Shown piece by piece: positions 4,876 through 28,357 of a DNA stretch of 33,824 nucleotides. The stretch is from Halobacteriales archaeon QS_5_68_33 (GTDB lineage Archaea > Halobacteriota > Halobacteria > Halobacteriales > Haloarculaceae). The notes under the pieces were generated by a model that did no database searches, was not told where the DNA came from, and was given only the letters and a program-made list of their open reading frames with translations. The stretch lies in contig PXRS01000055.1 of the NCBI GenBank assembly GCA_003023785.1, forward strand, positions 1-33,824, given 5' to 3'. How positions within the stretch are numbered: the first letter of the stretch is position 1; every line of letters begins with the position of its first letter. The position numbers were made by a program, and so were the translations under genes.

Positions 4876-4907
4876 AACGACCGAGGGGAGCGGAGTCGGA
4901 AGGGTCA

Positions 4908-5428: not shown

Positions 5429-5431
5429 TCA

Positions 5432-5539
5432 TAGTGTCTATCACGAGAGATTCGACGATACCCCGCCAGTCCGGTCCGGAGAAACGCTCTCACCCGGTGA
5501 CCCGACCGACTCACCGGTAAATGTTCGTGATAAACACTA
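5432..5539. mobile_element. 108-bp palindromic MITE, family B copy 1 (TSD TCA)
   Basis: The left end TAGTGTCTATCACGAG pairs with the right end TTCGTGATAAACACTA. Inner CCGGTCCGGAGAAAC and related blocks give further partial pairing. The flanks are TCA at 5429-5431 and TCA at 5540-5542. The right TCA is, on the minus strand, the TGA stop codon of rps8e. It matches the copy at 27089-27196 at 104 of 108 positions. Confidence 0.85.
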
Positions 5540-5911
5540 TCAGTCGACGAGGACGCCGTTGACCTGGCCGTCCTGGCCGGGTCGGGAGGTCACGCGGACC
5601 CGGCCCTCGCTAGTGTCGAGGATGGCGCCCTTCGTGATGATGTTCCGTCGGGCGTAGTTGGGGTTCGAGGGGTTCTCGGCGACGTTCTCGATCTCGGCGG
5701 CGACGGCGCCGTCGTCGGTCGCGACGGTGGCTGTCTCGACGTCGATGGCCCGCACTTTCCGCGTGTTGCCGCGCGTGTCGACGGTCTTGCGCTTGTCCTC
5801 GCCGACCTGCGTCTCGGTCGACTCCCGACCGAGCTCGTGCTTTCGCTTGTTCCGGAAGTTCCGGCGGCGGCCGCCGGTCCGCTTGCGCGGGGAGCGTCCC
5901 TGGTACTTCAT
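5540..5911 (-). CDS. rps8e: 30S ribosomal protein S8e
   Basis: This 123-residue protein has the family hallmarks: the basic N-terminus MKYQGRSPRKRTGGRRRNFR, the RGNTRKVRAI segment and the C-terminal NPNYARRNIITKGAILDT motif followed by GRVRVTSRPGQDGQVNGVLV. S8e is part of the archaeal and eukaryotic small ribosomal subunit. Length and both ends are as expected for the family. The ATG at 5911 was chosen because it gives the conserved MKYQGRS start and has a TATA-like box 26 bp upstream. Its TGA stop is the target triplet of the adjoining 108-bp element. Confidence 0.95.
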   Translation of the reverse strand: MKYQGRSPRKRTGGRRRNFRNKRKHELGRESTETQVGEDKRKTVDTRGNTRKVRAIDVETATVATDDGAVAAEIENVAENPSNPNYARRNIITKGAILDTSEGRVRVTSRPGQDGQVNGVLVD

Positions 5912-5933
5912 ACCCGTGTCGTGTCCGAGCGCG

Positions 5934-5941
5934 TACTTGAA
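5934..5941 (-). promoter_or_regulatory. TATA-like box for rps8e
   Basis: On the minus strand this reads TTCAAGTA, centred about 26 bp before the rps8e ATG at 5911. This is the spacing expected for a leaderless haloarchaeal transcript. Confidence 0.5.
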
Positions 5942-6042
5942 CCTCTCGAAACGACCACGCCCGACAGGCCCCACGAGCCGGCTGACGGTCCCCGGGACTC
6001 GACCCGACATCTTTACGGGGCGAGTCGACGCACACACGGTGG

Positions 6043-6483
6043 ATGAGTCTCCGTCGAGCAGTCGCGGAACCGTTCCGCGCGAAGGGCCGCGAGACGCTGA
6101 CCGACAGCGAGTTCGTCGTCGTGCTCTCGCTGGACCGGGAGTGGTTCACGGCCGAACAGGCAAAGCGACTGGTCGACGTCGCGACCACCGAGGGACTGCT
6201 CGAACGGGTCGACGGAAACCTTGCCATGACCTTCGACCGCCGCGAGGTGGCCATCCCCGACGGGTTCACCCCCGACGAGGACCTCCTCCGCCAGCGCTCG
6301 ACGTTCGAGCGGGCATTGCAGACGCTCGTCGAGGCCGGCATCGAGAAACAGGACGCCGTCGCGAGCATCAACCGCCTGCAGGCGGAACTGGGCGTGACAG
6401 TCGAGGCCGCCGCGGTCGTCTACGCCCGCCGCCAGGGCGTCGCCATCGGCGACCTCGCCGAACGGGCACGCGGGAAACTCTGA
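6043..6483 (+). CDS. DUF2240 family protein
   Basis: The product has 146 residues and matches archaeal DUF2240 proteins in length and in motifs such as MSLRRAVAEPFRAKGRE, LSLDREWFTAEQAKRLVDVA and the C-terminal ERALQTLVEAGIEKQDAVASI. The N-terminal half looks like a winged-helix fold. The function of the family is not known; a nucleic-acid role would be a guess. It diverges from rps8e by about 130 bp, and its stop overlaps the start of the next gene by one base (TGATG), so the two are probably cotranscribed. Confidence 0.85.
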   Translation: MSLRRAVAEPFRAKGRETLTDSEFVVVLSLDREWFTAEQAKRLVDVATTEGLLERVDGNLAMTFDRREVAIPDGFTPDEDLLRQRSTFERALQTLVEAGIEKQDAVASINRLQAELGVTVEAAAVVYARRQGVAIGDLAERARGKL

Positions 6484-6875
6484 TGGTCGAGGACCGCGTC
6501 ACCGACGGCGAGCGCGTCGCGCAGTTGCTCGCCTCCGAACTCTCGGGTCGCTCCGATGGCGAACTCGACCGCTTCTCCGTGGTCGACGCCGACCCCGATG
6601 CCGAACCCACGCCGGAGGGGACCGTCGCCTACCGCATCGCGGTCGACGGCGACCGGACCGGCGAGGTCCACATCTACCCGGACGGTGCCGAGGTCCGCGT
6701 CGGGGATGGGGGTGACGAGTCCGGGCACCACTCGTTCGACGCCGGTCGCGTCGTCGAGGGCGTCCGGGGAGACGGCCTCTCGACCGAATCGACCGGCGAG
6801 ACCATCGTGCGAATCGAGTACAGCGCAGCCGTCAAGCGGGCGGTCGACGCGCTGGTCGCGGGCGTCGACACGTAG
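6483..6875 (+). CDS. Conserved haloarchaeal hypothetical protein
   Basis: This acidic 130-residue soluble protein starts at ATG 6483, overlapping the DUF2240 stop by one base. The middle (GTVAYRIAVDGDRTGEVHIY) looks like a beta-rich domain, and the end (EYSAAVKRAVDALVAGVDT) like an amphipathic helix. I see no cysteines, catalytic motif, signal peptide or membrane segment. Translational coupling suggests it works with, or is at least coexpressed with, the DUF2240 protein. It is followed 70 bp later by pyrF on the same strand. Confidence 0.75.
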   Translation: MVEDRVTDGERVAQLLASELSGRSDGELDRFSVVDADPDAEPTPEGTVAYRIAVDGDRTGEVHIYPDGAEVRVGDGGDESGHHSFDAGRVVEGVRGDGLSTESTGETIVRIEYSAAVKRAVDALVAGVDT

Positions 6876-6945
6876 GTAAGTCGAAAGCTCCAGGGCGCCC
6901 GGTCGAGATGGGAAACCCCAATAGGTGTCTCGCGGAGGGTGGGGT

Positions 6946-7749
6946 ATGGGCTTTTTCGAGCGACTTTCGGCGCGCATCGACGTCGTCGACAGCGTCGTCT
7001 CCGTGGGGCTGGACCCCGATCCCGACCGCATCCCCGACCACCTTGCGGACGCCGACCTCCCGCGATGGGCGTTCAACCGCCGGATCATCGACGCGACCCA
7101 CGAACACGCCGCCGCGTTCAAACCCAACGCCGCCTTCTACGAGGACGCCGACGGCTGGCGCGCGCTCCGCGAGACGGTCGCCTACGCCCGCGGGAAGGAC
7201 GTCCCCGTCCTGCTGGACGCCAAGCGCGCCGACATCGGCAACACCGCCCGCCAGTACGCGACCCTCCTGGACGAGACCGGTGCCGACGCCATCACCGTCA
7301 ACCCGTACCTGGGCCGGGACTCGCTGGAACCGTTCCTCTCCCGGACCGGGACGGGCGTGTTCGTCCTCGCCCGGACCTCGAACGCCGGCGGGAGCGACAT
7401 CCAGGACCTCGAACTCGCCTCGGGCGAACCCGTTTACGAGCGCGTCGCGGCGCTGGCCGCCGACTGGAACGAACGCGGCAACGTCGGCCTCGTCGTCGGC
7501 GCCACGGCCCCCGAGGAACTCGAAGCGATCCGCGAAACGGTCCCGGATCTCCCCTTCCTCGTGCCCGGCGTCGGCACACAGGGCGGTGATGCCGAGGCGG
7601 CCGTCGAGTACGGTCTCGCCGACGGCGTCGGACTCGTCAACTCCTCGCGGGGGATCATTTTCGCAGGTGAAGACCGGGGCGAGGACTTCGCGGCCGCTGC
7701 GGGGCAGGCCGCCGGGCGACTCAAGCGGCGACTCAACGAGTACCGGTAA
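6946..7749 (+). CDS. pyrF: Orotidine 5'-phosphate decarboxylase
   Basis: The product has 267 residues. It converts OMP to UMP, the last step of de novo pyrimidine synthesis. The catalytic cluster DAKRADIGNT (D91, K93, D96) is intact, with FKPNAAFYE (K59) before it and the phosphate-binding VPGVGTQGGD and NSSRGIIFA segments near the C-terminus. The length and the DAKRGDI-like motif with the following NT.RQYA fit the longer group of PyrF enzymes. I chose the ATG at 6946 (MGFFERLSARID); an in-frame ATG lies 21 bp upstream. The stop TAA lies in DNA that resembles the left part of a family C palindromic element, so the last residues (EYR) may be element-derived. Confidence 0.92.
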   Translation: MGFFERLSARIDVVDSVVSVGLDPDPDRIPDHLADADLPRWAFNRRIIDATHEHAAAFKPNAAFYEDADGWRALRETVAYARGKDVPVLLDAKRADIGNTARQYATLLDETGADAITVNPYLGRDSLEPFLSRTGTGVFVLARTSNAGGSDIQDLELASGEPVYERVAALAADWNERGNVGLVVGATAPEELEAIRETVPDLPFLVPGVGTQGGDAEAAVEYGLADGVGLVNSSRGIIFAGEDRGEDFAAAAGQAAGRLKRRLNEYR

Positions 7750-7808
7750 CTGTGTTCCGGTGATTCGCCGGGCGGGTGAATCCCGGAACTGACTGACAGC
7801 CGACCGTA
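7748..7808. mobile_element. Truncated palindromic MITE, family C copy 3
   Basis: From ACTGTGTTCCGG to the terminal CAGCCGACCGTA this closely follows the copy at 5117-5190, but the outer left arm is missing or reduced to TACCGGTA at 7741-7748. The right flank TCA (7809-7811) is the stop codon of the minus-strand zinc-finger gene. It fills the whole gap between two convergent genes and may serve as their shared terminator. Confidence 0.7.
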
Positions 7809-8015
7809 TCAGAGTTCGTACGTGTCCACGCCGTCGGGGAGGTCCTCGTCCGACCCCTCGCCCGCGCCGCCGGACCGGCCGAGTTCGGCCGTGCACTCGA
7901 CGCAGACGCCCGCTTCCTCGTCGTAGTGGCGGTCACAGACCAGCTGGCCACAGCGGTCACAGGTGTAATCGACGTCCGGTTGCTGGCAGACCTCACAGAG
8001 GCCGGAGACGCTCAT
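7809..8015 (-). CDS. Small cross-brace zinc-finger protein
   Basis: This 68-residue protein has eight ordered ligands: C7, C10, C19, C22, C27, H30, C38 and C41. The spacing resembles HIT-type or B-box cross-brace fingers that bind two zinc ions. The remaining C-terminus is acidic and probably flexible. Such mini-proteins are common in haloarchaea and often act through protein contacts, but no partner is evident. The start is the ATG at 8015. Its TGA stop is the TCA triplet that flanks the family C element. Confidence 0.85.
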   Translation of the reverse strand: MSVSGLCEVCQQPDVDYTCDRCGQLVCDRHYDEEAGVCVECTAELGRSGGAGEGSDEDLPDGVDTYEL

Positions 8016-8109
8016 GCCCCACCTACGCCGCTGGGACGTTTTAACGTTGGGTCAAACGCACCTTTGAGGGGGCAGAAGGCACTTACCCGGCTCGGGTGAC
8101 AACCCGGGC

Positions 8110-9432
8110 ATGGACGACGCCTCCCGTCGACAGCACCTCCGCCGGTCGCTGCTCGTCGGGGCCGCGATGCTGGGCGGATGTCTCGCCGAGGAGACGCCGA
8201 CCGAGACGGACGCCGGCGGGACCCGGGAACCGACACCCACGACCTCGGGACCGGTGACGACGACGGGCCACGACACGCCGACGCCGACAGACCCTCCGAC
8301 GCCATCGGATGTCGAGGGGCTGGAGTGGTGGGTCGACCGCGGGGCGCCGGTGACGGCCACGCCGGCCGTCGCGGACGGGACGGTCTATGCCGGCACCGAG
8401 GACGGGACCGTCTCGGCACACGCCAGCGACACCGGGGAGACGACCTGGGAGTACGAGACCGGCGCCCCGGTCCAGGAACTGACGGTCGGGGAGGGGCACG
8501 TCCTGGCCGTGAGCGGGACGACGGAACTGTCCGCCGGCCAGGAACTGTACGCGCTCGACGCCGCGACCGGCGACGAGCGGTGGACGTTCAGCCCGACAGG
8601 CTGGTGGCTCGACCCGCTCGCGGTGCACGAGGGGCGGGTCTACGTCGGGACCGAGGACGACGTCGTCGGGGAGCGCAACGAGACGCTGTACGCCGTCGGA
8701 CTCGAAGCGGGCGAACCGGCGTGGGAGGCCACGACCGGCGACCCGCGCGAGGCCGTGTTCGACGACGAGACGCTCTACCTGTCGACGACGGACCGGGTCG
8801 ACGCCTTCGCGACCGACGACGGGACCGAGCGGTGGCACGCCGCGACGCCGGACCCGACGTTCACGACGCTGGCCGTCGCCGGCGGGACCGTCGTCCAGGG
8901 GTTCGACCCGGAGGACGCCGACGTGTTCGGCCTGCTCGCGGGGTTCGACGCCGACACCGGCGAGGAACTGTGGCGGCTCGACGACTGGTTCGTCACATCG
9001 ACCGCCGCTCGCGACGGCGACCTCTACGTCGGCGGCGAGCGGGTCGTCGCGGTCGATCCCGTCGACGGAACGACCGAGTGGACGTTCGAGGAGGGCGGGT
9101 TCCTCACCGACGCCAGCGTCGACGACGACCGCGTCTACGCCGGCGGCGACGGCGTCGCCGCGCTCGACCGGGCGAGTGGCGAGGGCGCGTGGACGTTCGC
9201 ACCCGACCCCGCGCAGGGCGGCGTCCAGGTGGCGGGTCGAACCGGTGGGACCCTCTACCTCGACGCCTACCACGACGCCGACCCCCGCAACCAGTACAAG
9301 TTCGCCGTCGACGCCGCGACCGGCGAGCAGCGGTGGGCCTTCGAGGACGGTACTGAACTGACCGACCTCGCCGTCGGGGACGGCCTCGCCGTCGCGGGCG
9401 GGGAGAACGGCCGCGTCTACGGGCTGTCGTGA
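8110..9432 (+). CDS. PQQ-like beta-propeller lipoprotein, Tat exported
   Basis: The product has 440 residues. The N-terminus has a twin arginine (RRSLLVGAAM) and a lipobox ending at the Cys in LGGC, followed by a Thr/Pro-rich spacer. This is typical of haloarchaeal Tat lipoproteins anchored outside the membrane. The rest contains repeated beta-propeller blades of the PQQ/quinoprotein type, seen as AVADGTVYAGTEDGTVSAHA, LYALDAATGDERW, AGFDADTGEELWRL and AVDAATGEQRW. Such domains are often binding or scaffold domains; no bound quinone is implied. The start is the ATG at 8110, giving the best signal peptide. The next gene follows after 46 bp. Confidence 0.85.
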   Translation: MDDASRRQHLRRSLLVGAAMLGGCLAEETPTETDAGGTREPTPTTSGPVTTTGHDTPTPTDPPTPSDVEGLEWWVDRGAPVTATPAVADGTVYAGTEDGTVSAHASDTGETTWEYETGAPVQELTVGEGHVLAVSGTTELSAGQELYALDAATGDERWTFSPTGWWLDPLAVHEGRVYVGTEDDVVGERNETLYAVGLEAGEPAWEATTGDPREAVFDDETLYLSTTDRVDAFATDDGTERWHAATPDPTFTTLAVAGGTVVQGFDPEDADVFGLLAGFDADTGEELWRLDDWFVTSTAARDGDLYVGGERVVAVDPVDGTTEWTFEEGGFLTDASVDDDRVYAGGDGVAALDRASGEGAWTFAPDPAQGGVQVAGRTGGTLYLDAYHDADPRNQYKFAVDAATGEQRWAFEDGTELTDLAVGDGLAVAGGENGRVYGLS

Positions 9433-9478
9433 CCGGCGGAGCGAGACGTTTAGGGGCCGGCGGGCCGAAGGCCGGGTC

Positions 9479-10030
9479 GTGTACGGGTCGCGCATCGTCT
9501 CCGGACTGGCGGTCGTGTTCGGGGGAATGGCCGCGGTGTTCGTCGCCCTCGCGGTCGCGTACAACCCGGTGTTTCTCGGCGTTGCCGCGGTGTTCGGCGC
9601 GGCGGCGTACTTCGTCTGGTACCACGCCTCCGGGCGCTTCGCCCGCCGCCTCTACCGGGGCGTCGAGAGCCAGGCCCAGGCCGAGGGGGCAGGCGCCGGC
9701 CCGCGCGAGGAGTGGGTGCCACCCCGCGACGGGCAGACCGCCCGCGAGGCTGCCGGAAGACAGCGGCGAGCGAGCGCCCGGAACAGGCGACGCGGGCCGG
9801 GTCGAGGGAACGCTCGCGCCGACGGCGCCCGGGCGGGCGTCCCGCCGAACGACGGGATCACGACCCGGGAGGCTTACGACCGCCTCGGACTCGACCCCGG
9901 TGCCGACGCCGACGCCGTCAGGAGCGCCTACCGCGAGCGGGTCAAGGAGGTCCACCCCGACACCGACGGCGGCGACGAGGACGAGTTCAAGCGCGTCAAG
10001 GACGCCTACGAGCGCCTGAGCGAGGACTGA
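9479..10030 (+). CDS. Membrane-anchored J-domain protein
   Basis: The product has 183 residues. Two hydrophobic helices at about 6-26 and 28-47 anchor it in the membrane. A basic Arg/Gly-rich linker (about 70-120) leads to a C-terminal J domain from about 129. It contains the required HPD triplet at 159-161 (KEVHPDTDGG) followed by FKRVKDAYERL. J domains stimulate the ATPase of Hsp70 (DnaK), so this protein probably recruits DnaK to the membrane. The start is the GTG at 9479; an alternative start is not evident. Confidence 0.85.
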   Translation: MYGSRIVSGLAVVFGGMAAVFVALAVAYNPVFLGVAAVFGAAAYFVWYHASGRFARRLYRGVESQAQAEGAGAGPREEWVPPRDGQTAREAAGRQRRASARNRRRGPGRGNARADGARAGVPPNDGITTREAYDRLGLDPGADADAVRSAYRERVKEVHPDTDGGDEDEFKRVKDAYERLSED

Positions 10031-10084
10031 TCCGGGCCGCTCCGATACCGTCCCCCTGGCTGTCCGGCGGCGATCCGAATACTG

Positions 10085-11047
10085 ATGACCGTCACCCCGC
10101 CAGTGGGGGACGTGACACCGCCGCTGGCCGTCGACATCGACGGAACGCTGACCGACGAACAGAGCGCCGTCGCGCCGCGGGTCTTCGACGTCCTCCGGGA
10201 GTGGGACGCCGAGGTGGTCGTCGCGACGGGGAAGGCCCTGCCCTATCCGGTCGCGCTCTGCCAGTTCGTCGGGATCCCGGCGAGCGTCATCGCGGAGAAC
10301 GGCGGGGTGGCGTACGTCGACCGGACCGACGACCTGCTCTTTCTCGGCGACCGCGCGGCCTCGCAGGCGGTCGTCGAGGAGTACCGGGCCGCGGGTCACG
10401 GCCTCGGGTGGGGGACCCACGACATGGTCAACCGCTGGCGCGAGACCGAGGTAGCGGTCAGCCGCGACTCCCCCCTCGAACCGCTGGAGCGGATCGCCGC
10501 TCAGCACGGCCTGGAGGTCGTCGACACCGGCTTTGCGTACCACGTCAAGTCCGCCGAGGTGAGCAAGGGGCAGGCGCTGTCGAACGTCGCCGAGCGACTC
10601 GGGCGCGAGACCGAGGAGTTCGTGGCGGTGGGGGACTCGGTCAACGACGCCTCCACCTTCGAGGTGGCCGGGCGGTCGTTCGCGGTCGGGAACGCCGACG
10701 ACGTCGCCCGCGCGGCCGCCGACGTGGTGGTCGAGGAGCGCTACGCCGAGGGGTTCCTCGCGGTCGTCGAGCGGGAGCGGTTCCGTCGCACACTCGTTCG
10801 AAACGGGTGTTCCGTAGACGTGCGTAATTACCGTTACACAAAGAATTTACCCCGAACCTTGCTATCCCTGTTATGTCCTCCCATACACGTCGCTCAATTC
10901 TCGGTTCATTGGTCGGGCTTTCAGTTGTGGGTGGCGTCTCCACAACCCAAGCACGGCCACAGCCAACTTTCGAGTCGGTATGGAACAAGACGATCATCGA
11001 ATCACGGGAATTCGGAGACTCGTCCAGACTTCCCAATGGGGCACTAG
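10085..11047 (+). CDS. pgp: Phosphoglycolate phosphatase with an abnormal C-terminal extension
   Basis: Residues 1 to about 232 are a complete TA0175-type HAD phosphatase. They contain DIDGTLTD (nucleophile D17 and acid D19), a T in VVVATGKAL, K161 in VSKGQAL, and VGDSVNDAS (D184, D188). It should hydrolyse 2-phosphoglycolate. The family normally ends near residue 225-235. Here no stop follows, and the frame runs a further 88 residues of Arg/Ser/Cys-rich unnatural sequence. The last 175 bases overlap the next gene in a different frame. The loss of the natural stop coincides with the drop in GC at about 10785, so the end was probably altered when that island was acquired. The start is ATG 10085; GTG 10112 is possible. 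Confidence 0.8.
   Translation: MTVTPPVGDVTPPLAVDIDGTLTDEQSAVAPRVFDVLREWDAEVVVATGKALPYPVALCQFVGIPASVIAENGGVAYVDRTDDLLFLGDRAASQAVVEEYRAAGHGLGWGTHDMVNRWRETEVAVSRDSPLEPLERIAAQHGLEVVDTGFAYHVKSAEVSKGQALSNVAERLGRETEEFVAVGDSVNDASTFEVAGRSFAVGNADDVARAAADVVVEERYAEGFLAVVERERFRRTLVRNGCSVDVRNYRYTKNLPRTLLSLLCPPIHVAQFSVHWSGFQLWVASPQPKHGHSQLSSRYGTRRSSNHGNSETRPDFPMGH
10843..10849 (+). promoter_or_regulatory. TATA-like box for the PGF-CTERM gene
   Basis: The AT run GAATTTA is centred about 27 bp before the ATG at 10873, the spacing expected for a leaderless haloarchaeal transcript. It lies inside the run-on frame of the upstream phosphatase. Confidence 0.5.
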
Positions 11048-12261
11048 TGGTGGCTGGTGTGAAGTCACACCCGACAGTGCAATCTTCCGCTCCAGATGTT
11101 GTCGCAATTGACGATAGCGGGAACAGAGAATGGGTGTGGAACTGGCCGGAAGATAGATCAGACTCGCTTGATTATGTTCAGGCTCTTGCACCGGCAGACG
11201 ATGGAGGACTGTTTTTTGCGGGGCCAACAGATGAAGACCGCTCGGAAGCCCTCCTGATCGGGAAACTGGACGCCGAACGGAACGTTGAGTGGCACATTAC
11301 CCCCAAAGAATACCACTACTATTATGGACTGGTTCTCGTCCGTACATCGTCGTCTCGCCTGACCATTATTGGATATGAGGTAAGTCCAGAAATTAATCGA
11401 ACCCACGTATTCGGACTTGACACGGACACGCGGTCAGTCAGTTGGGAGAGAGATGCATTTCCCGACACCAGTATGTTATCCGCTACGGTACACCAACAGG
11501 GCTGTGTCGTCACAGGTGAGACTTCCAAGGGTGGATGGACAGCACGATTTACGCCTGACGGAGACACTGATTGGGAACGAACATTCTCGAAGCCCGAACT
11601 CGTACTTACTGACGTTACGACCTCCGCGGATGGTGATGTTGTTGCGATCGGCCATCGTATAAACGACTATGAGACAATTGAGATACCGATACTCGATTCA
11701 GATGGCACGCTGAATGCAAGACAGGTACTCGAGTTTCAGCCGCTATCCGTCCCGCATGACCCCCAGATCGTATCGGTTCCAAGCGGTGGATACGTGTGTT
11801 CGTGGTCGTATGGCGACCGGTCGGAACTGTTCATAGGGAAACTCACCACTGAAGGGACTCTTACATACGGGAATCACATTGAACCGTGGAATTCGACGTC
11901 CAGACCTGTTCTTCTGGACATTGAGTTGGTGAATGAAGCGATTGTTCTTCTCGGTAATACAAAAGACGGAGAATCCGAACCCACTCTCACGTGGGGCGTT
12001 GAAGCGGACAAGACGGTCAAAACGCGCACCCTGACAGAAACACCATCGCAGACGGCAACTGATACCCTGTCACCGACACAGACGCCAACACCGACAGGGA
12101 CGCCCTCGCCGACGGACGTGCCGAAGCCAACAGAAACCGAGACCCCGACCACCAGCACCTCATCTGCTAATGGCCCCGGATTCGGGGTAGTCGGGTCGCT
12201 TCTCGGTGTGGCTGGAGTCGGTTATTTTGTGTCGTCCCGATCTCAAGAAGAGTCAGATTGA
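10873..12261 (+). CDS. Tat-exported propeller protein with PGF-CTERM anchor
   Basis: The product has 462 residues. The N-terminus has a Tat signal (RRSILGSLVGLSVVGG) with a cleavage-like TTQA. Residues about 30-380 show repeated beta-propeller-like strands (VVAIDDSGNREWVW, LIGKLDAERNVEWH, ARFTPDGDTDWERTF) like those in haloarchaeal secreted proteins. A Thr/Pro-rich stalk (about 385-430) follows. The C-terminus from 434 is a PGF-CTERM signal: GPGFGVVGSLLG, a hydrophobic helix, then SSRSQEESD. Archaeosortase A is known to process such tails and attach the protein to a membrane lipid. The ligand is unknown. It is the first gene of the AT-richer island. Confidence 0.85.
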   Translation: MSSHTRRSILGSLVGLSVVGGVSTTQARPQPTFESVWNKTIIESREFGDSSRLPNGALVVAGVKSHPTVQSSAPDVVAIDDSGNREWVWNWPEDRSDSLDYVQALAPADDGGLFFAGPTDEDRSEALLIGKLDAERNVEWHITPKEYHYYYGLVLVRTSSSRLTIIGYEVSPEINRTHVFGLDTDTRSVSWERDAFPDTSMLSATVHQQGCVVTGETSKGGWTARFTPDGDTDWERTFSKPELVLTDVTTSADGDVVAIGHRINDYETIEIPILDSDGTLNARQVLEFQPLSVPHDPQIVSVPSGGYVCSWSYGDRSELFIGKLTTEGTLTYGNHIEPWNSTSRPVLLDIELVNEAIVLLGNTKDGESEPTLTWGVEADKTVKTRTLTETPSQTATDTLSPTQTPTPTGTPSPTDVPKPTETETPTTSTSSANGPGFGVVGSLLGVAGVGYFVSSRSQEESD

Positions 12262-12422
12262 CAGAGGCAGGGTTCTCAACGCGATCGGCTCGACGGGAAC
12301 CGTCCTCCGGTCAAGGCGGGCTAACAAATCTATCTTCTGTAGCCAGCGTATCATAGAAACATTCACAGAGGATTGATTTCATCGACATTATAATCGAAAC
12401 AACCGCTCAGTAGACCTGCTAA

Positions 12423-12938
12423 CTAATCGTTCTCGATTATGTATTTTCCAAATGTCGCGGCGTCTTCTTCATTTCGGCCAATCACTCGGACAATATCACC
12501 TTGCTCTAATGACGTATTGAGTTGAATATCCCCGCTCGCTTCGGTTTCTGGTTCAACCAACGTCACGCTGTCATCTTTATTCAAGGGAAGCCTACCAGCA
12601 CCCGAACCATTCCGAGCAATCCAGAGATACTGCTGACTGCTTTGATTTGAAGCGTTATGGGCGACAACGATACTGACTTCGTTCGGCTCAAATTCCTCCG
12701 GACAACCCTTATTCGTCCGATTATTCGTATCAAGGAGGGCGTCACCGCCAGTATGCTTGACGGTTAGCGTTCCTGTTGACGCGTCGCGCTGGAAGGACAA
12801 CTCCGCGTTCGGCGTGCCAATAGCCAAATCATCGTCACACCGAAGTTGCGTGTACCAGATACCCGCTCCAGTAGTGATAAAGGCCAGAACTACGATAAGT
12901 ATTACCGTTGACTGACGAGAGCGAAGTCCTCGAAGCAT
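12423..12938 (-). CDS. Pilin-like secreted or anchored protein
   Basis: The product has 171 residues. It begins MLRGLRSRQSTVILIVVLAF, a short basic stretch followed by a single hydrophobic helix to about residue 28. This resembles type IV pilin-like N-terminal domains, though no standard cleavage site before the helix is clear. The segment LSFQRDASTGTLTVKHTGGDAL matches the beta-strand pattern of the archaeal pilin domain (DUF1628-like). Two cysteines (34 and 79) could form a disulfide. It points toward the PGF-CTERM gene (convergent), with a 161-bp gap in which I see no gene. The role is unknown; surface location is inferred. Confidence 0.7.
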   Translation of the reverse strand: MLRGLRSRQSTVILIVVLAFITTGAGIWYTQLRCDDDLAIGTPNAELSFQRDASTGTLTVKHTGGDALLDTNNRTNKGCPEEFEPNEVSIVVAHNASNQSSQQYLWIARNGSGAGRLPLNKDDSVTLVEPETEASGDIQLNTSLEQGDIVRVIGRNEEDAATFGKYIIEND

Positions 12939-12960
12939 ACTTTAGATGACGACGCTTAAC

Positions 12961-12966
12961 TTATAA
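12961..12966 (-). promoter_or_regulatory. TATA box for the pilin-like gene
   Basis: TTATAA is centred about 25 bp before the ATG at 12938 on the minus strand, in an AT-rich context. This fits a leaderless transcript. Confidence 0.55.
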
Positions 12967-13109
12967 TCTCTGTGTCACATTATCATAACCCTTGAATCAA
13001 TACAGTCTCGCCTTCCGATGAAATAACTGTCTTTACCTATCGACTCAGGAGATCCGGGGGCGTTCGCCTGGATACCGCTCCGGCCCCTACGGACCGATAG
13101 GGAGACGCT

Positions 13110-14729
13110 ACGGGTCGAAACGTCCTCCGTCGCGCCATCGAGCGAGGGGAGCAGGAGGGCGGCAGCGTCGAGTTCAAAGAGCGGCTCACGAAGGACCTCC
13201 ATCTCTCGGAGGGACGCCGGGAGAGCCTCGCCGCCCAGTTGCGCCACCGCGTGCTCTCGGGCGAGGGCGAGGCGACCTACGTCGTCGGCGTCACCGACGA
13301 CGGCGGCATCGCCGGCGTCCACCCCGACGCGTTCTCCGAGTCGATGGACGTCCTCTCGCTGCTGGCGGAGGAGGCCGGCGCTCACATCGAGAACGTCGAG
13401 ACGTGGGGCGTCGACGGCCCCGCCGCCGACGCGGAGGGGGAGGGCGGCATCGTCGGCGTCGCTACCGTCCGCGAGGGCACGGTCCTGGAGGACGACGACC
13501 ACATCGTCGTCGGCACGGCGGGCCACGTCGACCACGGCAAATCCACGCTCGTCGGGTCGCTCGTTACCGGACAGGCCGACGACGGCGAGGGCGGGACCCG
13601 TTCGTACCTGGATGTCCAGCCCCACGAGGTCGAGCGGGGTCTCTCGGCGGACCTCTCCTACGGCGTGTACGGCTTCGACGAGGACGGACCCGTGCGGATG
13701 GACAACCCCCACCGGAAGGGCGACCGCGCCCGCGTCGTCGAGGAGGCCGACAGGCTGGTGTCGTTCGTCGACACCGTGGGCCACGAGCCCTGGCTCCGGA
13801 CGACCATCCGGGGACTGGTCGGCCAGAAACTCGACTACGGTCTGCTCACCGTTGCGGCCGACGACGGGCCGACGAAGACCACGCGAGAACACCTGGGTAT
13901 CCTGCTGGCGACCGACCTGCCGACCGTCGTCGCGGTCACGAAGGTCGACCTCGTCGACGAGGAACGCGCCCGAGAAGTCGAGCGCGAGGTCGAGCGCCTC
14001 CTCCGGGAGGTCGAAAAGACGCCGCTGTCGGTCGACCGCCACGGCGTCGACGCGGCCGTCGAGGAGATAGACGACACCGTCGTCCCGATCCTCGCGACCA
14101 GCGCGGTCACCGGCGAGGGACTGGACGACCTGGACGCGCTGTTGGAGCGCCTGCCCGGGACGGCCGACCCGCCCGACGGCGAGTTCGCCATGTACGTCGA
14201 CCGGAGTTACAACGTGACCGGCGTCGGCGCGGTCGCCTCCGGCACCGTGAAGTCGGGCCGCGTCGAGGCCGACGACGAACTCCGCCTCGGACCGATGCAG
14301 GACGGGAGTTTCCGGGAGGTGGAGGTCCGCTCGATCGAGATGCACTACCACCGCGTCGACGAGGCCAGGGCCGGGCGCATCGTCGGCATCGCCCTCAAGG
14401 GCGTCGAGGAGCGCGACGTCGAACGCGGCATGGTCCTGCTCCCGCGGGACGCCGACCCCACGCCGGTCCGGGAGTTCGAGGCCGAGGTGATGGTGTTGAA
14501 CCACCCGACGCGCATCGGCGACGGGTACGAACCCGTCGTCCACCTCGAAACGGTCAGCGAGGCGGCGGCGTTCTACCCGGCCGAGGGGCGCCTCCTGCCG
14601 GGCGACACCGGAAAGGCACGGGTCCGGTTCAAGTTCCGGCCCTACCTCGTCGAGGAGGGCCAGCGGTTCGTCTTCCGCGAGGGACGCTCGAAGGGCGTAG
14701 GCACGGTTACGGACATCGACCCGGCGTAG
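13110..14729 (+). CDS. GTPBP1-like translational GTPase, start codon unclear
   Basis: The frame codes for about 539 residues. It has an N-terminal domain (GGSVEFKERLTKDLHLSEG, AQLRHRVLSGEGEATYVVGV), then a GTPase domain with P-loop GHVDHGKST, switch DTVGHEPW and TKVDL, then two beta-barrel domains (YNVTGVGAVASGTV, GKARVRFKFRPYL). This is the archaeal GTPBP1/2-like group related to elongation factor 1A. Homology begins well upstream of the first standard start, TTG 13239. Between the in-frame stop at 13098 and 13239 there is no ATG, GTG or TTG. ACG at 13110 (reading MGRNVLRRAIERG if initiated) is where a start would be expected. I give 13110 as the likely ancestral start; TTG 13239 would lose 43 conserved residues. 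Confidence 0.8.
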   Translation, partial: TGRNVLRRAIERGEQEGGSVEFKERLTKDLHLSEGRRESLAAQLRHRVLSGEGEATYVVGVTDDGGIAGVHPDAFSESMDVLSLLAEEAGAHIENVETWGVDGPAADAEGEGGIVGVATVREGTVLEDDDHIVVGTAGHVDHGKSTLVGSLVTGQADDGEGGTRSYLDVQPHEVERGLSADLSYGVYGFDEDGPVRMDNPHRKGDRARVVEEADRLVSFVDTVGHEPWLRTTIRGLVGQKLDYGLLTVAADDGPTKTTREHLGILLATDLPTVVAVTKVDLVDEERAREVEREVERLLREVEKTPLSVDRHGVDAAVEEIDDTVVPILATSAVTGEGLDDLDALLERLPGTADPPDGEFAMYVDRSYNVTGVGAVASGTVKSGRVEADDELRLGPMQDGSFREVEVRSIEMHYHRVDEARAGRIVGIALKGVEERDVERGMVLLPRDADPTPVREFEAEVMVLNHPTRIGDGYEPVVHLETVSEAAAFYPAEGRLLPGDTGKARVRFKFRPYLVEEGQRFVFREGRSKGVGTVTDIDPA

Positions 14730-14760
14730 GGGCCGGACTTCGAGGGGCCGCGGCCCGTCA

Positions 14761-14838
14761 TACTGTCGGTTGTACCGATGTACCGGCAGTTCGCCGGCCG
14801 ATTCGACGACATCCGGAAATGACCCGTCTCGGCGGTCT
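14761..14838. mobile_element. Degenerate palindromic MITE, family C copy 4
   Basis: The left two thirds, from TACTGTCGGTTGTACCG to ATCCGGAAATGA, follow the intact copy at 32790. The right arm no longer matches or pairs. The left flank is TCA (14758-14760). It lies 31 bp after the GTPase stop and directly before the 108-bp family D element, whose insertion or an associated deletion may have removed its right end. The right boundary is approximate. Confidence 0.6.
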
Positions 14839-14847
14839 CGCGGCTCA

Positions 14848-14955
14848 TACTGTCGGACACAAGTGATGCCACCGCTCCGGTGACTGTTTCGAGGTCTTCG
14901 AGATTCATGTCCCCGAACGTCGACGAGCACGTTCACGTACTTGTGTCCGACAGTA
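14848..14955. mobile_element. 108-bp palindromic MITE, family D (TSD TCA)
   Basis: The left end TACTGTCGGACACAAGT is an exact inverted match to the right end ACTTGTGTCCGACAGTA. It is flanked by TCA at 14845-14847 and 14956-14958. The right TCA is the TGA stop codon of mch on the minus strand. It has the same length as the two family B copies but a different sequence. It is non-coding and lies between convergent genes. Confidence 0.85.
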
Positions 14956-15888
14956 TCAGAGCCCGAAGCTCTCGACGAGGAGGTCCTCGTTCACCTCGCC
15001 GAGGACGTGTGTGTCGCCGCCGACGACGTCGACGGTGACCGTGGCGGGGGCGAAGACGCTCTCGGGCACCTCGTAGAAATCCCAGTCGGCGTCGGCGAAG
15101 ATGTCGGCGAAGGGCGTGCCGTACTCGTCCGTCGCGGTGGAGGGCACCTCGTCGAACCGGCCGAACGGTTCGTCGACGACGAGGTGGACCCGCCCGCCGT
15201 AAGCCAGCGCGTCGTTCGTCCGGGCGATGGCCGTCTCCTCGTCGCCGGCGACGGGCGCGACCGGAGCCGACCCCGTCGCCGAGAGGATGTCCAGCGGGTC
15301 GTACCCGAGTTCCGAAAGCCGGAAGACGGCGAGTTCGGCTGCCCTGGCGGCCATCGTGACGCTGCCCGTGACGCTCGCCGCGGCGAAGGCCGGCAGGAAG
15401 ACGCCGCTCCCGGCGACGCCCGCCGTCTCCGCGACGTGTTCGACCACGCGCTCGTCCGGGAGTTCCTCGCTCTCGACACAGAGGACCGCGAGGTCGAACT
15501 CGTCTCGATAGCCGACGCCCCGGAACTCCTCCTCCTCGGCGACGAGGGCCCGGGCCGGGCCGCTGCCCAGCCCCTCGAACCCGTCGACCGAGAGCTCCCA
15601 CCCGGCCTTCTGCGAGCACAGAAGCGACAGCGCCGGGTGGTCGGTCGAGAGTTCGACGCCCGTCAGCGGCGCGCCACCGACCTCGACCATACCGGTCTGG
15701 ACCGTCGCCAGCCCGGCGGTCTGGATCTCCGCGAGCATGAGACCCGCTTCGACACCGCCGGACACGTCGACACCGAAGTCCAGCACGAGCGACTCGTTGT
15801 CGAGCTGGTGGACGGCGACGTTCAGCTCGTCGGCGAAGTCCAGCGCCTCGTCGACGAGGTCCGTCGCCGTCCTGTTGAGACTCTCCAT
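14956..15888 (-). CDS. mch: Methenyl-tetrahydromethanopterin cyclohydrolase
   Basis: The product has 310 residues, the usual Mch length. It should interconvert N5,N10-methenyl- and N5-formyl-tetrahydromethanopterin-type C1 carriers in the cytosol. Recognisable parts are MESLNRTATDLVDEALDFAD at the start, FGVDVSGGVEAGLMLAEI, GAPLTGVELSTDHPALSLL, SQKAGW, LGSGPARAL and LGYDPLDILSATGSAPVAPV. In haloarchaea, which are not methanogens, it is thought to serve folate-like C1 metabolism. The ATG at 15888 was chosen because it gives the conserved N-terminus. The stop is part of the TCA duplication of the adjoining element. Confidence 0.92.
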   Translation of the reverse strand: MESLNRTATDLVDEALDFADELNVAVHQLDNESLVLDFGVDVSGGVEAGLMLAEIQTAGLATVQTGMVEVGGAPLTGVELSTDHPALSLLCSQKAGWELSVDGFEGLGSGPARALVAEEEEFRGVGYRDEFDLAVLCVESEELPDERVVEHVAETAGVAGSGVFLPAFAAASVTGSVTMAARAAELAVFRLSELGYDPLDILSATGSAPVAPVAGDEETAIARTNDALAYGGRVHLVVDEPFGRFDEVPSTATDEYGTPFADIFADADWDFYEVPESVFAPATVTVDVVGGDTHVLGEVNEDLLVESFGL

Positions 15889-15961
15889 GCTCGGACTTGC
15901 TCGCCGGTGGAACTTCCGTCTTCGGTTCGACGGCGGTGCGTCGGCGTCGACCGTGGTCCCG

Positions 15962-16186: not shown

Positions 16187-16215
16187 ACCACCCACCTGCG
16201 TCGGGCCGTACCTAA

Positions 16216-16293
16216 TACTGCCGGCTGTAAGTCTGTCAAGAATTTCGCCGCCCCGGGGCGGCGAATATCTTCACGAAGTTACAGCCGGCAGTA
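16216..16293. mobile_element. 78-bp palindromic MITE, family A, copy 2 (TSD TAA)
   Basis: It has the same ends as copy 1 (TACTGCCGGCTGTAA and its complement) and differs from it at three positions. The flanks are TAA at 16213-16215 and TAA at 16294-16296. A different but equally perfect duplication from copy 1 shows that these triplets belong to the target, not to the element. It lies between the small membrane-protein gene and the end of the epimerase gene. Confidence 0.88.
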
Positions 16294-16338
16294 TAAGTTC
16301 TCGCGTTCGCCGGTGAAGAGAAGCGGCCCGCTCGCGTC

Positions 16339-17268: not shown

Positions 17269-17467
17269 CCGGTAACGGGTACGGTAGCATCGAGCATATA
17301 GGTTCTGTTGCTGAGGGATGACGGGATCCGACAACCGGAGAAACGCTCCGATACCGTCCGAGCGACCGCTCATCGCCGGCTGGCGTCTCGGGCGGAAACA
17401 GTAATCCGACGAACGTTCGTCGGCCGTCGGGGGAAACACGTACGGTCACGCAGTCCACAGCACAGGT

Positions 17468-18229: not shown

Positions 18230-18265
18230 ATCGACTGCAAAGCGGATCCGCAGTTCGGGACGCTC

Positions 18266-19243: not shown

Positions 19244-19323
19244 AGTCGATCGGTCGGTCGGAACCATCGTAAAGACCGGGGGAGCGATGAGAAATTAGGC
19301 GAGGACGTGCCGACCGGAACGTG

Positions 19324-22879: not shown

Positions 22880-22972
22880 AGCTACACGCTAGTCGTCCGG
22901 CTACCTATACGTGCCGTCCGGGGCGAATCCGTCGGGCTCTCGGCGAGCGGGCGGGTCGACGACGGACCACAC

Positions 22973-23461: not shown

Positions 23462-23520
23462 CGGCGGACGGACTGGTAATGGTTTCGAGGAGCGGTCGAG
23501 CGAGAAACGGGGAGTGGCAG

Positions 23521-24453
23521 TCAGTTCTCGGCGGCGAGGCCCTGTGCGAACTCCTCGGCGAAGAAGGCGTAGATGATGAGCGTCGGCAGCGCCGCGAACA
23601 GCGCGCCGGCCATCCGCAAGCCGAAGTCGATGCCCGAGAGGTCCGTCCCGAGTCCGGAGAGGACGAGCGTGACGGTGGCGGCCGGGCTGGAGGAGCTCCC
23701 GATCAGCGTGAGGCTGAACAGGAACTCGTTCCAGATGGCCGTGAACTGGTAGATGAAGACGACGCCGACCATCGGCTTCGACAGCGGCAGGACGACGCGA
23801 CGGTAGATCGTCGTGATCGACGCGCCGTCGATCTTCGCCGCCTCGACCAGTTCGTCCGAGAGCGTGAGGTAGTACCCCCGGAACAACAGCATGCACAGCG
23901 GGATCCCGTAGACGATGTGGGTGATCGTCAGCGAGAGCAGCCTCGCGTGGGCGTACTCCATGAACGAGAGCTCCCAGACCGGCGCGAGGACCTCCGCGAG
24001 CGGGACGATGTTGATCCAGAAGTCCGACAGCGGCACCAACACAGCCTGGTACGGGATGAAGATGCCGACGAGAAAGAGGATCAACACCGCGAACTGGGCG
24101 CGCTTGCCCCAGTCGACCAGCGTGAGGCCGTAGGCCGCCGTGCTGCCGAGGAACACCGTCGCGATGGTCGACGGGATAGTCATGATCAGACTGTTGACGA
24201 AACCCGTCGAGAGGTGGTCGATCGCCCGAGCCCACTTCTCCACCGTGAAGCCGTCGCCCAGCGGCGGCGTCAACGGCGTGGTTGCCGTCACCGCCCCGCT
24301 GGTCTTGAACGAGGTGACGATCCCCGTCCAGATCGGTGCGAGGAAGAAGGCGAAAAAGAACGTGATGACCAGCGAGAGGCCGATCTTCCAGTAGTCGAGC
24401 TCGGGCAGGACGTCGGCGAAACTCCCGTCGGCGGGTCGGGTTGCTTTGCTCAT
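23521..24453 (-). CDS. Sugar ABC transporter permease (MalG type)
   Basis: The product has 310 residues with about six membrane helices. The EAA loop that contacts the ATPase reads EAAKIDGASITTIYRRVVLP, as in CUT1-family MalG-like permeases. The start MSKATRPADGSFADV is polar and cytoplasmic. It pairs with the MalF-like permease, whose stop lies one base from this start codon, and with the binding protein upstream. Together with the ATPase at 27197-28357 they make a complete sugar importer. Confidence 0.9.
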   Translation of the reverse strand: MSKATRPADGSFADVLPELDYWKIGLSLVITFFFAFFLAPIWTGIVTSFKTSGAVTATTPLTPPLGDGFTVEKWARAIDHLSTGFVNSLIMTIPSTIATVFLGSTAAYGLTLVDWGKRAQFAVLILFLVGIFIPYQAVLVPLSDFWINIVPLAEVLAPVWELSFMEYAHARLLSLTITHIVYGIPLCMLLFRGYYLTLSDELVEAAKIDGASITTIYRRVVLPLSKPMVGVVFIYQFTAIWNEFLFSLTLIGSSSSPAATVTLVLSGLGTDLSGIDFGLRMAGALFAALPTLIIYAFFAEEFAQGLAAEN

Positions 24454-24454
24454 C

Positions 24455-25360
24455 TCAGAGACTCCCCTGTTTGTGCTGGTAGTGGAGGTACGGTGCGATG
24501 ACCGCCAGCGCCATCAGCAGCAGTATCGTCGCGATGGCGGCGGCGTAGGCCCAGTTCTGGAGTTTGAACGCCTCGCGGACCATCAGCGTCGCGAGGATGT
24601 CCGTTCCCTTGGGGACGCGGTACTGGCCGAACATCGAGAACAGGAACGTGAACGCCTTCAGCGCGAAGATCACCAGCACGACCGCGGCGCTCACGGACGA
24701 CGATTTGAGTTGCGGGATGATCACTCGCCAGTAGGTCCGCAGGACGCTCGCGCCGTCGACCTGTGCGGCCTCGAACTGGTCGTCGGGGATCGACTGCAGG
24801 CCCGCGAGGAACACGACCATCGCGTAGCCGCTGAACTGCCAGATCAGCGCGGCGCCCAACAGGAGATTGATCAGCCCGTTGTTGACGTTGTACATCCACA
24901 GCCAGAACTGCGCCGTCACCACGAACGACAGCGCCATCGGCAACAGGTAGATCGTCTGGATCTTCTCCTTGTACCGGATGCCGCGGTCGAGCATGACCGC
25001 CAGGAACAGCCCCAGTACCATGGTGACCGTCGTGAAGACGATCAACAGGACGAACGTGTTCTTGCTGGTCGTCCAGACCCACGGGTCGTTGACCGTCTGG
25101 ACGTACATCTCCAGGTCGAGATTGCCGGGGCTGAAGTCCGGCCCCTCGTTGAACCCCTCGTAGTCGGTGAGCGATATCAGGGTGTTGTAGCCGATCCCGC
25201 CGTAGACCCCCAGTCCCATGATGGAGAAGGGGACGAACCAGTACGGGAACGACCTGGCGAAGTCGCTCTTCGAGAACACCTCGAGTCTGGTCTGCCAGTC
25301 GCGTTCCGCTCCGGTCCCGACGTTCTGGGACTCGGACACGGTGTCTCGCGAGCCCGCCAT
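24455..25360 (-). CDS. Sugar ABC transporter permease (MalF type)
   Basis: The product has 301 residues with six predicted helices and a large outside loop after the first (ISLTDYEGFNEGPDFSPGNL). The EAA loop is EAAQVDGASVLRTYWRVIIP. It forms the membrane channel with the MalG-type protein. It lacks the extra N-terminal helices of E. coli MalF, as usual for CUT1 transporters outside enterobacteria. The gene sits 32 bp after the binding-protein gene and one base before the second permease. Confidence 0.9.
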   Translation of the reverse strand: MAGSRDTVSESQNVGTGAERDWQTRLEVFSKSDFARSFPYWFVPFSIMGLGVYGGIGYNTLISLTDYEGFNEGPDFSPGNLDLEMYVQTVNDPWVWTTSKNTFVLLIVFTTVTMVLGLFLAVMLDRGIRYKEKIQTIYLLPMALSFVVTAQFWLWMYNVNNGLINLLLGAALIWQFSGYAMVVFLAGLQSIPDDQFEAAQVDGASVLRTYWRVIIPQLKSSSVSAAVVLVIFALKAFTFLFSMFGQYRVPKGTDILATLMVREAFKLQNWAYAAAIATILLLMALAVIAPYLHYQHKQGSL

Positions 25361-25392
25361 TGGTTATGGAATGCTGTTGTGTGCCGACCTCG

Positions 25393-26769
25393 TCAGAAGA
25401 CGCTCATCAGTTCGTCGGCGGTCGCCTCGGCGTCGTAGGGCCCCATGAAGTTCGAGGCGATGGCGTCCTTGCACGCACTCAGCTCGTCGGCGGTTGCGGC
25501 CAGGCCGTGGGCGAGCGTGGGCGGGAACTTTTCGAGGTTGTTGAGGTCCTCGACGTTGAGGTTGAGGAACTCCGTGAGTCGGCTGCCGTCGACGTCCGTC
25601 CGCAGGGGGATCGACCCTTTGAGGTTGTTGAACTCCACTTGAACGTCCTTCGTACCGAGGAACTCGGCGAAGACGCGTGCCTTCTGGGGTGCGTTGCCGT
25701 CCCGCGGGAACAGGAAGTTGTCCAGGTGCCAGACGTACATGTCCTCCGTGCCCGGGAAGGCCGTCCACCCCCAATCCTCGTTGAACTCGAAATTGTCGGT
25801 GTTGCGGTACATCCCGTAGGCCCAGTTGCCCATCGTGAAGAACGCGGCGTCGCCGGCGATGAGTTTGTCGTTGGCCTCCGGGAAGCTGATCGAGGACTTG
25901 TCGTTGTTGGAGTAGTTCTCGATGACGTTTTTCGTCTTGTCCAGCGCGCGAACGAGGGCCTCTCCGTCCCCCTCGCCGTCGAGCCACGCCTCGTAGGGTT
26001 CCTGGCCCTCCGTGCCGAGCATGAACTCGACGAAGTACTGGAGGTTCGCCCAGGAGCCGCGGGTGGTCATCGTGATCGGGATCGCGTCGGTGTTCTGGTC
26101 GACGGCGTCCAGCGCGTCGATGAACGCGTCGTAAGAGGTGAGACTCTCGGGGTCGACGCCCGCCGCTTCGAGCACAGCCGTGTTGTAGAAGAGGTTGTTC
26201 AGGCGGTGAGAACCGAGCGGGATCGACCGATAAGCGTCGTTGAGTCTGCTCGCTTCGCGCGCCTTCGGGTGGATCGAATCCGTGTACCCGGCTTCCTCCC
26301 ACACGTCGTCGATGCTCATGAGGCGGCCACCGTACTGCTCCATCGTCTTGCCCGGCCAGGAGGCGAACGCGTCCGGCGGGTTCCGGTTCGCGAGACGCCG
26401 GGCGACCGTCGCGTTGAGGTTCTCGTTGGCGTCCCCACCGATCGGCTTGATGTCGTGCTCGACGTCCGAGTGCTGCTCCTCGAACATCTCGACGAGGCGG
26501 CCGACTGCGGCAGCACCGTCACCACCGGTCCAGCCGTGCAGCGCCTCCATGGCGTCGTCCGTCATCGTCGGCGTTTCACCGCCGTCACCGCCGTCCATCC
26601 CGCCGTCGCCGTCGGAGCCACCGTCACTGGTTCCATCGCCGTCGCCGTCGCCGCCGTCACCACCGCTACAGCCCGCGACGAGCGCACCGACACCCAGCGA
26701 TCCCATTTGGATCATTCGGCGTCGAGTCAAGTTTGCTCTGTCACTGCCAGAATCGCCATCTTGCGGCAT
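25393..26769 (-). CDS. Sugar ABC transporter substrate-binding lipoprotein
   Basis: The product has 458 residues. The N-terminus has a Tat motif (TRRRMIQMGSLG) and lipobox LVAGC with Cys34, then a long Gly/Asp repeat spacer (about 36-62), typical for haloarchaeal anchored binding proteins. The mature part is a family 1 solute-binding protein. Typical pieces are MEALHGWTGGDGAAAVGRLV, EMFEEQHSDVEHD, DAFASWPGKTMEQYGG and GDAAFFTMGNWAYGMYRN. It should catch a sugar or glycoside outside the cell and hand it to the two permeases. A long 427-bp gap with three palindromic elements separates it from the ATPase gene. Confidence 0.9.
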   Translation of the reverse strand: MPQDGDSGSDRANLTRRRMIQMGSLGVGALVAGCSGGDGGDGDGDGTSDGGSDGDGGMDGGDGGETPTMTDDAMEALHGWTGGDGAAAVGRLVEMFEEQHSDVEHDIKPIGGDANENLNATVARRLANRNPPDAFASWPGKTMEQYGGRLMSIDDVWEEAGYTDSIHPKAREASRLNDAYRSIPLGSHRLNNLFYNTAVLEAAGVDPESLTSYDAFIDALDAVDQNTDAIPITMTTRGSWANLQYFVEFMLGTEGQEPYEAWLDGEGDGEALVRALDKTKNVIENYSNNDKSSISFPEANDKLIAGDAAFFTMGNWAYGMYRNTDNFEFNEDWGWTAFPGTEDMYVWHLDNFLFPRDGNAPQKARVFAEFLGTKDVQVEFNNLKGSIPLRTDVDGSRLTEFLNLNVEDLNNLEKFPPTLAHGLAATADELSACKDAIASNFMGPYDAEATADELMSVF

Positions 26770-26822
26770 GCACCTACGTAACTACCCGACCCACATAATC
26801 ATTTGGAATAATTTTACAGTAA

Positions 26823-26886
26823 TACTGCGTTCTCAACGCGCAGTGCCGGAGATTTCACCGGTTTGAGACAATGATCGAACGCAGTA
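26823..26886. repeat. 64-bp palindrome upstream of the binding-protein gene (family F)
   Basis: TACTGCGTTC at 26823-26832 pairs with GAACGCAGTA at 26877-26886. TCTCAA and TTTGAGA give an inner pairing. The flanks are TAA and TCA, both TNA but not identical. It starts 54 bp before the ATG of the binding-protein gene, so it might be an old MITE, an operator, or both. The AT-rich DNA between it and the gene (26792-26816) contains the probable promoter. Confidence 0.5.
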
Positions 26887-26988
26887 TCACGCGTGTAATA
26901 ACCGATCAGAAAAACACATATGCATGATGTTTAGGGGCGTGCAGCGGTAATCAGAGAGCGGCCGGGGGTGGGGCCGAACCTGTCCTGA

Positions 26989-27066
26989 TACTGCCGGCTG
27001 TAAGTCTGTCAAGAATTTCGCCGCCCCGGGGCGACGAATATCTTCACGAAGTTACAGCCGGCAGTA
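26989..27066. mobile_element. 78-bp palindromic MITE, family A, copy 3 (TSD TGA)
   Basis: It differs at one position from copy 2 and at four from copy 1. The flanks are TGA at 26986-26988 and TGA at 27067-27069, a third different but perfect triplet of the TNA type. It lies in the gap between the ABC ATPase and the binding-protein gene. Confidence 0.88.
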
Positions 27067-27088
27067 TGAACGCCCCGGCAGGGGCTCA

Positions 27089-27196
27089 TAGTGTTTATCA
27101 CGAGAGATTCGACGATACCCCGCCAGTCCGGTCCGGAGAAACGCTTTCACCCGGTGACCCGACCGACTCACCGGGAAATGCTCGTGATAAACACTA
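27089..27196. mobile_element. 108-bp palindromic MITE, family B copy 2 (TSD TCA)
   Basis: The ends TAGTGTTTATCACGAG and CTCGTGATAAACACTA are exact inverted matches, better preserved than in copy 1. The flanks are TCA at 27086-27088 and 27197-27199. The second TCA is the TGA stop codon of the ABC ATPase gene. Only 22 bp separate it from the family A element before it. Confidence 0.88.

Positions 27197-28357
<1,161 letters not shown>

Follow-up and report, generated by a model that had tools for sequence, protein, structure and literature searches.

Short palindromic mobile elements abut the stop codons of haloarchaeal genes in excess of chance

In a 33,824-nucleotide stretch of DNA from Halobacteriales archaeon QS_5_68_33 (contig PXRS01000055.1; hereafter, the window), short palindromic elements end exactly where four genes stop. 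This raises the question of how mobile DNA comes to lie so precisely at the ends of genes, and whether it does so more often than expected. A preliminary description of the window, made from the sequence alone, had proposed that such elements insert into stop codons, duplicate them and leave the proteins unchanged. The window is contig 55 of a draft genome of 2.42 Mb on 84 contigs that is 71% complete. Here, we describe the element families, the occupancy of stop codons in this and other genomes, the target motif, and the explanations that have to be weighed against each other.

Element families and their junctions in the window

A profile search found 12 elements in the window, which belong to four families of short palindromes (Table 1). 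Family A is 78 bp long with ends TACTGCCGGCTGTAA, family B 108 bp with ends TAGTGTTTATCACGA, family C ~78 bp with ends TACGGTCGGTTGT and family D 108 bp with ends TACTGTCGGACAC. The window elements (78–108 bp) are non-coding and carry terminal inverted repeats, their ends are paired in predicted folds, and TNA flanks most intact element ends. Across the whole draft genome, the end patterns occur 546 times for C, 164 for A, 131 for D and 35 for B, against one match for A and none for B, C or D with the reversed control pattern on both strands together. Where TNA stands on both sides of an element, the two triplets are identical in 29 of 29 cases for A, 6 of 6 for B, 25 of 27 for D and 43 of 58 for C, although for family C this is weak evidence of duplication because only the middle base of the TNA is informative. 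Families A–D are thus MITEs by their short non-coding form with terminal inverted repeats, their target duplication and their high copy number.

Two observations on the families can be added. In the remaining 15 of the 58 family C elements flanked by TNA on both sides, the triplets differ, as TGA versus TCA in 12 cases; recombination between copies has perhaps given rise to these. By eye, a further short palindrome can be seen at window positions 26822–26886, with ends TACTGCGTTC and flanking TAA and TCA, possibly representing a fifth element family.

Table 1. Elements and adjoining genes in the window
Feature	Positions	Strand	Remarks
Family A element 4908–4985, TCA duplications	4905–4988		Away from stops
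Family C element	5117–5190		Left triplet TGA, right CGG (not TNA)
Family C element 5351–5428, TCA duplications	5348–5431		Directly behind family B element at rpS8e
Family B element 5432–5539, 108 bp	5429–5542	-	TCA duplications 5429–5431 and 5540–5542; right TCA doubles as the stop (TGA) of rpS8e
rpS8e	5540–5911	-	Stop is element target triplet; Pfam PF01201 above cut-off
Family C element 7746–7808, far end truncated	7746–7811	-	TCA 7809–7811 doubles as the stop (TGA) of the zinc-finger gene
Small zinc-finger gene	7809–8015	-	zf-HIT, slightly below Pfam cut-off
Family C element, one end truncated	14761–14823		Profile search
Family D element 14848–14955, 108 bp	14845–14958	-	TCA duplications 14845–14847 and 14956–14958; right TCA doubles as the stop (TGA) of mch
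mch (cyclohydrolase)	14956–15888	-	Stop is element target triplet; Pfam MCH above cut-off
Family A element 16216–16293, TAA duplications	16213–16296		Away from stops
Family A element 26989–27066, TGA duplications	26986–27069		Away from stops
Family B element 27089–27196, TCA duplications	27086–27199	-	Right TCA 27197–27199 doubles as the stop (TGA) of the ATPase gene
ABC transporter ATPase (MalK type)	27197–28357	-	Stop is element target triplet; Pfam ABC transporter above cut-off
Family C element 31926–32003, TCA triplets	31923–32006		Profile search
Family C element 32790–32867	32787–32870		Left TCA, right TCG

All four junctions reported in the preliminary description are exact: an element ending in GTA or CTA is followed directly by TCA, the minus-strand TGA stop, and the gene ends given by our gene caller coincide with every one of them. 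The long palindrome directly behind the gene, also part of that description, is full length in three of the four cases, with matching TCA duplications, while the copy at the zinc-finger gene is truncated at its far end. The estimate of four among about twelve copies likewise holds, as 4 of 12 elements. The window by itself proved little, since P = 0.05 against a stop share of 12.3% among non-coding TGA/TCA sites, a share that is lowered somewhat by the wrong control sites added when the caller omits plausible genes (e.g. the window open frames 10873–12261 and 30790–31869).

The truncated C element lies wedged, within positions 7740–7811, between the pyrF stop (TAA 7747–7749) and the stop of the zinc-finger gene. 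The missing far end of the element may therefore have been cut back as far as pyrF.

Occupancy of stop codons in this and other genomes

We extended the analysis to 60 stretches on 21 contigs, which together with the window comprise 1.136 Mb or about half of the genome; the sampled contigs are the larger ones already known to bear elements. A home-made caller with a codon-context model gave 1031 genes (81% coding) in this sample, and the profile search found 296 elements. Of 491 element ends, 123 fall exactly on the in-frame stop of a same-strand gene running into the element (A 16/105, B 7/28, C 82/278, D 18/80), and these represent 121 distinct stops. Among the listed distances from -30 to +60 nt, any position other than the stop has at most four ends. 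Elements with identical duplications, a set of 103 that leaves out pairs with unequal or non-TNA triplets, lie at a stop in 54 cases (A 11/29, B 5/6, C 27/43, D 11/25), when about 12% would be expected from non-coding TGA/TCA sites. With relaxed ends, 126 of the 296 elements abut a stop.

Among stops not overlapped by the next gene, 114 of 578 TGA and 3 of 71 TAA codons are occupied; TAG is never occupied (0 of 119), as the TNA target excludes it. About one-fifth of the TGA-ended genes with free DNA behind them therefore carry an element in the sampled genome. As had been proposed, TNA is duplicated upon insertion into TGA (rarely TAA) stops, which regenerates the stop. When sites within the same 3' regions are compared (genes with a score of at least 15), 114 of 593 TGA stops are occupied versus 54 of 962 TGA/TCA sites 1–120 nt downstream (odds ratio 4.0, P = 2e-16), and in convergent spacers, which have no promoter between the genes, the counts are 57 of 256 stops versus 47 of 593 sites. 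The excess over chance, which the preliminary description had suspected without computing it, is confirmed by these counts, and it suggests that stop codons are a safe landing spot for mobile DNA. Extrapolated from 121 stops in about half of the genome, some two hundred gene 3' ends have been rewritten.

Two further counts bear on how the excess came about. A single element of the 296 lies inside a called gene, which is weak evidence for purging because the caller would split a disrupted gene in two. The stop share shows no trend with age, being 25 of 50 in higher-scoring and 29 of 53 in lower-scoring copies (families summed); this is compatible both with a preference exerted at insertion and with very rapid purging, and does not discriminate between them.

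Elements are also stacked at stops. The order at rpS8e is gene-TGA-B-TGA-C-TGA, most simply the outcome of two successive hits on the same stop codon, and of the 23 pairs of elements no more than 6 nt apart, 14 have a member adjoining a stop.

Of 58 genomes, five contain the D end pattern, the window genome among them. A second genome, from another genus of the same family, carries family D together with the families TAGTGATTATTGT (80 bp) and TACGGTCGTGCGT (107 bp). Within its sample of 0.69 Mb, for which contigs were chosen for D ends, 58 of 263 element ends lie on stops, as do 40 of the 87 elements with identical duplications; 56 of 394 TGA stops are occupied versus 37 of 762 downstream TGA/TCA sites (odds ratio 3.2, P = 8e-8). 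A smaller count in this genome, covering 0.39 Mb and families A–D only, was weaker (8/220 versus 7/511, P = 0.08). The C end is carried by at least 71 stretches, of which 29 are haloarchaeal, including Haloarcula sp. LUM.49 and Halobacteriales archaeon QS_6_64_34. On these 29 contigs of other haloarchaea, 11 of 83 stops and 11 of 279 sites are occupied (P = 0.006).

The claim that insertion leaves the protein unchanged could be checked in relatives without the element, since different stop positions there would speak against it. We compared 29 relative loci each for mch and rpS8e, out of 32 and 37 other genomes in which they were matched, respectively, all of other genera. The element ends directly behind the stop were found in none of these 58 loci (67 bases each), and the proteins end at the same place to within two residues for mch and three for rpS8e, which bears the claim out. 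More generally, homologues of at least 50% identity were present in the analysed DNA for 13 element-bearing genes, and 12 of these end within five residues of the homologue, the exception being a partial alignment; the figure for genes without an element is 106 of 128.

Target motif, insertion and known systems

The sequence preferred by the elements can be read from insertions away from stops. In 42 TGA/TCA insertions of this kind with matching duplications, C is preferred before and G after the triplet. Pooling the two genomes gives 85 insertions, with C at -1 (P = 5e-9), G at +1 (P = 6e-6) and weaker preferences for G at -3, A/T at -2, A at +2 and C at +3. The target away from stops is near-palindromic, roughly GWC-TSA-GWC. 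Genes in these genomes frequently end in GAC TGA or GAG TGA, and endings such as GAC TGA match the left half of the motif, so that part of the stop excess is explained. GAC is the last codon at 28 of 118 occupied versus 69 of 644 unoccupied TGA stops in the window genome, and at 16 of 56 versus 37 of 400 in the second. Comparing occupied with unoccupied stops, G at +1 is favoured (P = 7e-4), as are, weakly, G at -3, A at -2 and A at +2, while C at -1, which is the most strongly preferred base away from stops, shows little enrichment (63% versus 53%, P = 0.18).

In a logistic model of the pooled 3' regions, the odds ratio for a stop falls from 4.7 to 2.9 with six flanking bases and to 2.4 with twelve (95% interval 1.5–3.8), a control that may over-correct because the upstream bases themselves mark coding sequence. 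The model is restricted to TGA/TCA sites whose two flanks are known; occupied sites known from one end are excluded on both sides. The motif explains part, not all, of the stop excess, and a 2.4–2.9 fold excess remains. For this remainder, after flanks and region have been matched, we can only infer a cause.

The best explanation of the findings is probably MITE insertion at GWC-TSA-GWC, with the stop restored by duplication and genic copies purged. The elements would presumably be moved by a transposase that duplicates a 3 bp TNA and prefers the palindromic target. An in-frame TGA that follows GAC, the aspartate codon with which many genes here end, matches the left half of this target, and insertion would duplicate the TGA, leaving the gene with its stop and protein and allowing the copy to survive. 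Insertions inside genes would be purged. The regenerated TGA would stay beside the gene, where it could be hit again, giving rise to stacked elements.

An alternative is active targeting beyond the motif, in which the terminating ribosome, coupled transcription or DNA structure, for example, would attract the transposition machinery to where translated genes end, and stops would be a true safe harbour. The residual odds ratio against context-matched 3' sites in each genome (2.4 and 2.6, twelve bases), the absence of an age trend and the single-position peak at the stop all point this way. The residual may, however, come from position interactions missed by the additive model, from uncalled genes among the control sites or from weak selection in 3' UTRs, and we know of no factor that targets elements to gene ends. 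We regard active targeting as unlikely. Slightly less doubtful, though still speculative, is the broader idea that the system recognises the stop with its typical last codon, and perhaps translation termination, as a renewable safe harbour throughout the genome. If so, every insertion would restore the stop and leave it open for the next element.

The search for a mobilising element covered several sources. Among terminal inverted repeat pairs lying 500–2600 bp apart with equal duplications, in a search that took in about half of the window genome, there are seven candidates, none of which could be established as a parent. The long repeats of the same sample form three distinct pairs, none with these ends. 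No DDE transposase with these ends was found at 16 PF01609 loci of five genomes (PF01609 only), and plasmid records gave no match to the element ends. Two sets of viral contigs (17 and 6 stretches) gave one match each and no parent element. One of the seven repeat-pair candidates, 872 bp long with matching 16-base ends and located in the second genome, was rejected, as it resolves into two family D copies on either side of another open frame, whose stop one copy abuts.

Groups within the IS5 family comprise insertion sequences with a 3 bp TNA duplication, the same kind of target duplication as in the elements described here; a DDE transposase of this kind with these ends was not seen at the PF01609 loci. 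Tn7 inserts behind glmS, a safe 3'-end site, and leaves the gene intact, as our elements do. It is directed to a single site via a DNA-binding protein, whereas here more than 100 genes are involved and it is the stop codon itself that is duplicated as the target.

Closer relatives in form have been described in Haloquadratum walsbyi. According to the available portions of that report, the HqIRS MITEs resemble the present elements in being short and mostly non-coding, with terminal inverted repeats and often target duplications, and haloarchaeal MITEs are thought to be moved in trans (PMC3119063). They number 55 per strain, compared with 546 family C ends alone here, and landing in stop codons is not described in those portions (PMC3119063). 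The PATEs and SMRs of Haloquadratum are also small haloarchaeal mobile repeats with palindromes or inverted repeats, but, in the same portions, PATEs are without terminal inverted repeats and both are without target duplications (PMC3119063). Identity with the IS605-related PATEs was rejected, since our elements have both features. Among the matches listed in the open-access PMC literature, as far as their accessible text extends, there is no report of MITEs or insertion sequences preferring stop codons, and none is described in the accessible parts of PMC4853749, PMC2229807, PMC10969869 and PMC4495683. A MITE that creates a premature stop, a different phenomenon, appears in the corresponding part of PMC6382973.

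These findings show a way for a mobile element to multiply into the hundreds within a compact genome while genes stay intact: its target preference overlaps a gene ending that is common in these GC-rich genomes, and the duplicated target rebuilds the stop. Target choice versus purifying selection becomes a testable matter, and the system could guide the design of tools for insertion at safe sites.

Terminator function and gene calling

It had also been suggested that the palindrome behind the gene might serve as a ready-made terminator or 3' end protector, and stop copies could then have been kept because their hairpin stops transcription or shields the 3' end of the mRNA. The hairpins predicted for the RNA of the four window copies are stable, at about -39 to -53 kcal/mol in both orientations. 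In the available part of a study of Haloferax volcanii, one hairpin terminated 59% in the reported test and a T-tract, the efficient terminator in this species, 95% (PMC7237163). Family C is biased in orientation at stops (28:58, P = 0.0016; an earlier count of 18:46 partly reflected the required TA end), and its copies with identical duplications are 6 in the same and 21 in the opposite orientation at stops versus 7 and 9 elsewhere. The printed copy of the second-genome family TACGGTCGTGCGT has a run of five A, which is five T on one strand.

T-tracts, element scores and orientation in the other families nevertheless lend the suggestion no support. TTTT is not rarer behind element-bearing genes (15/60 versus 65/281, P = 0.74; second genome 5/32 versus 45/189, P = 0.37), element scores are alike at stops and elsewhere, families A, B and D lie in both orientations without significant skew (16, 9 and 19 copies), and the four folded window copies have no T run longer than three. 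Nor would such a function require position 0 rather than +1 to +60. Beyond the predicted hairpin itself and the family C bias there is no evidence for a terminator role, and we consider it highly improbable that selection for it accounts for the copies at stops.

It is barely credible that the junctions are a gene-calling artefact, with open frames ending by chance in the target triplet. The home-made caller does overlook some plausible genes, and the draft genome is 71% complete. Even so, the count stands when higher gene scores are required (76 of 615 genes scoring at least 60), 12 of the 13 element-bearing genes with homologues end within five residues of them, the ends of mch and rpS8e are conserved, and at 227 TGA ends an upstream open frame of at least 100 codons is present in the TGA frame at 137, compared with 57 and 99 in the other frames (second genome, 114 TGA ends: 64 versus 23 and 40).

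Two stretches of the window in which few or no genes were called, 11201–13300 and 30101–32900, have a G+C content of 0.51–0.58, compared with 0.66 for the window, and they are possibly foreign or decayed DNA.
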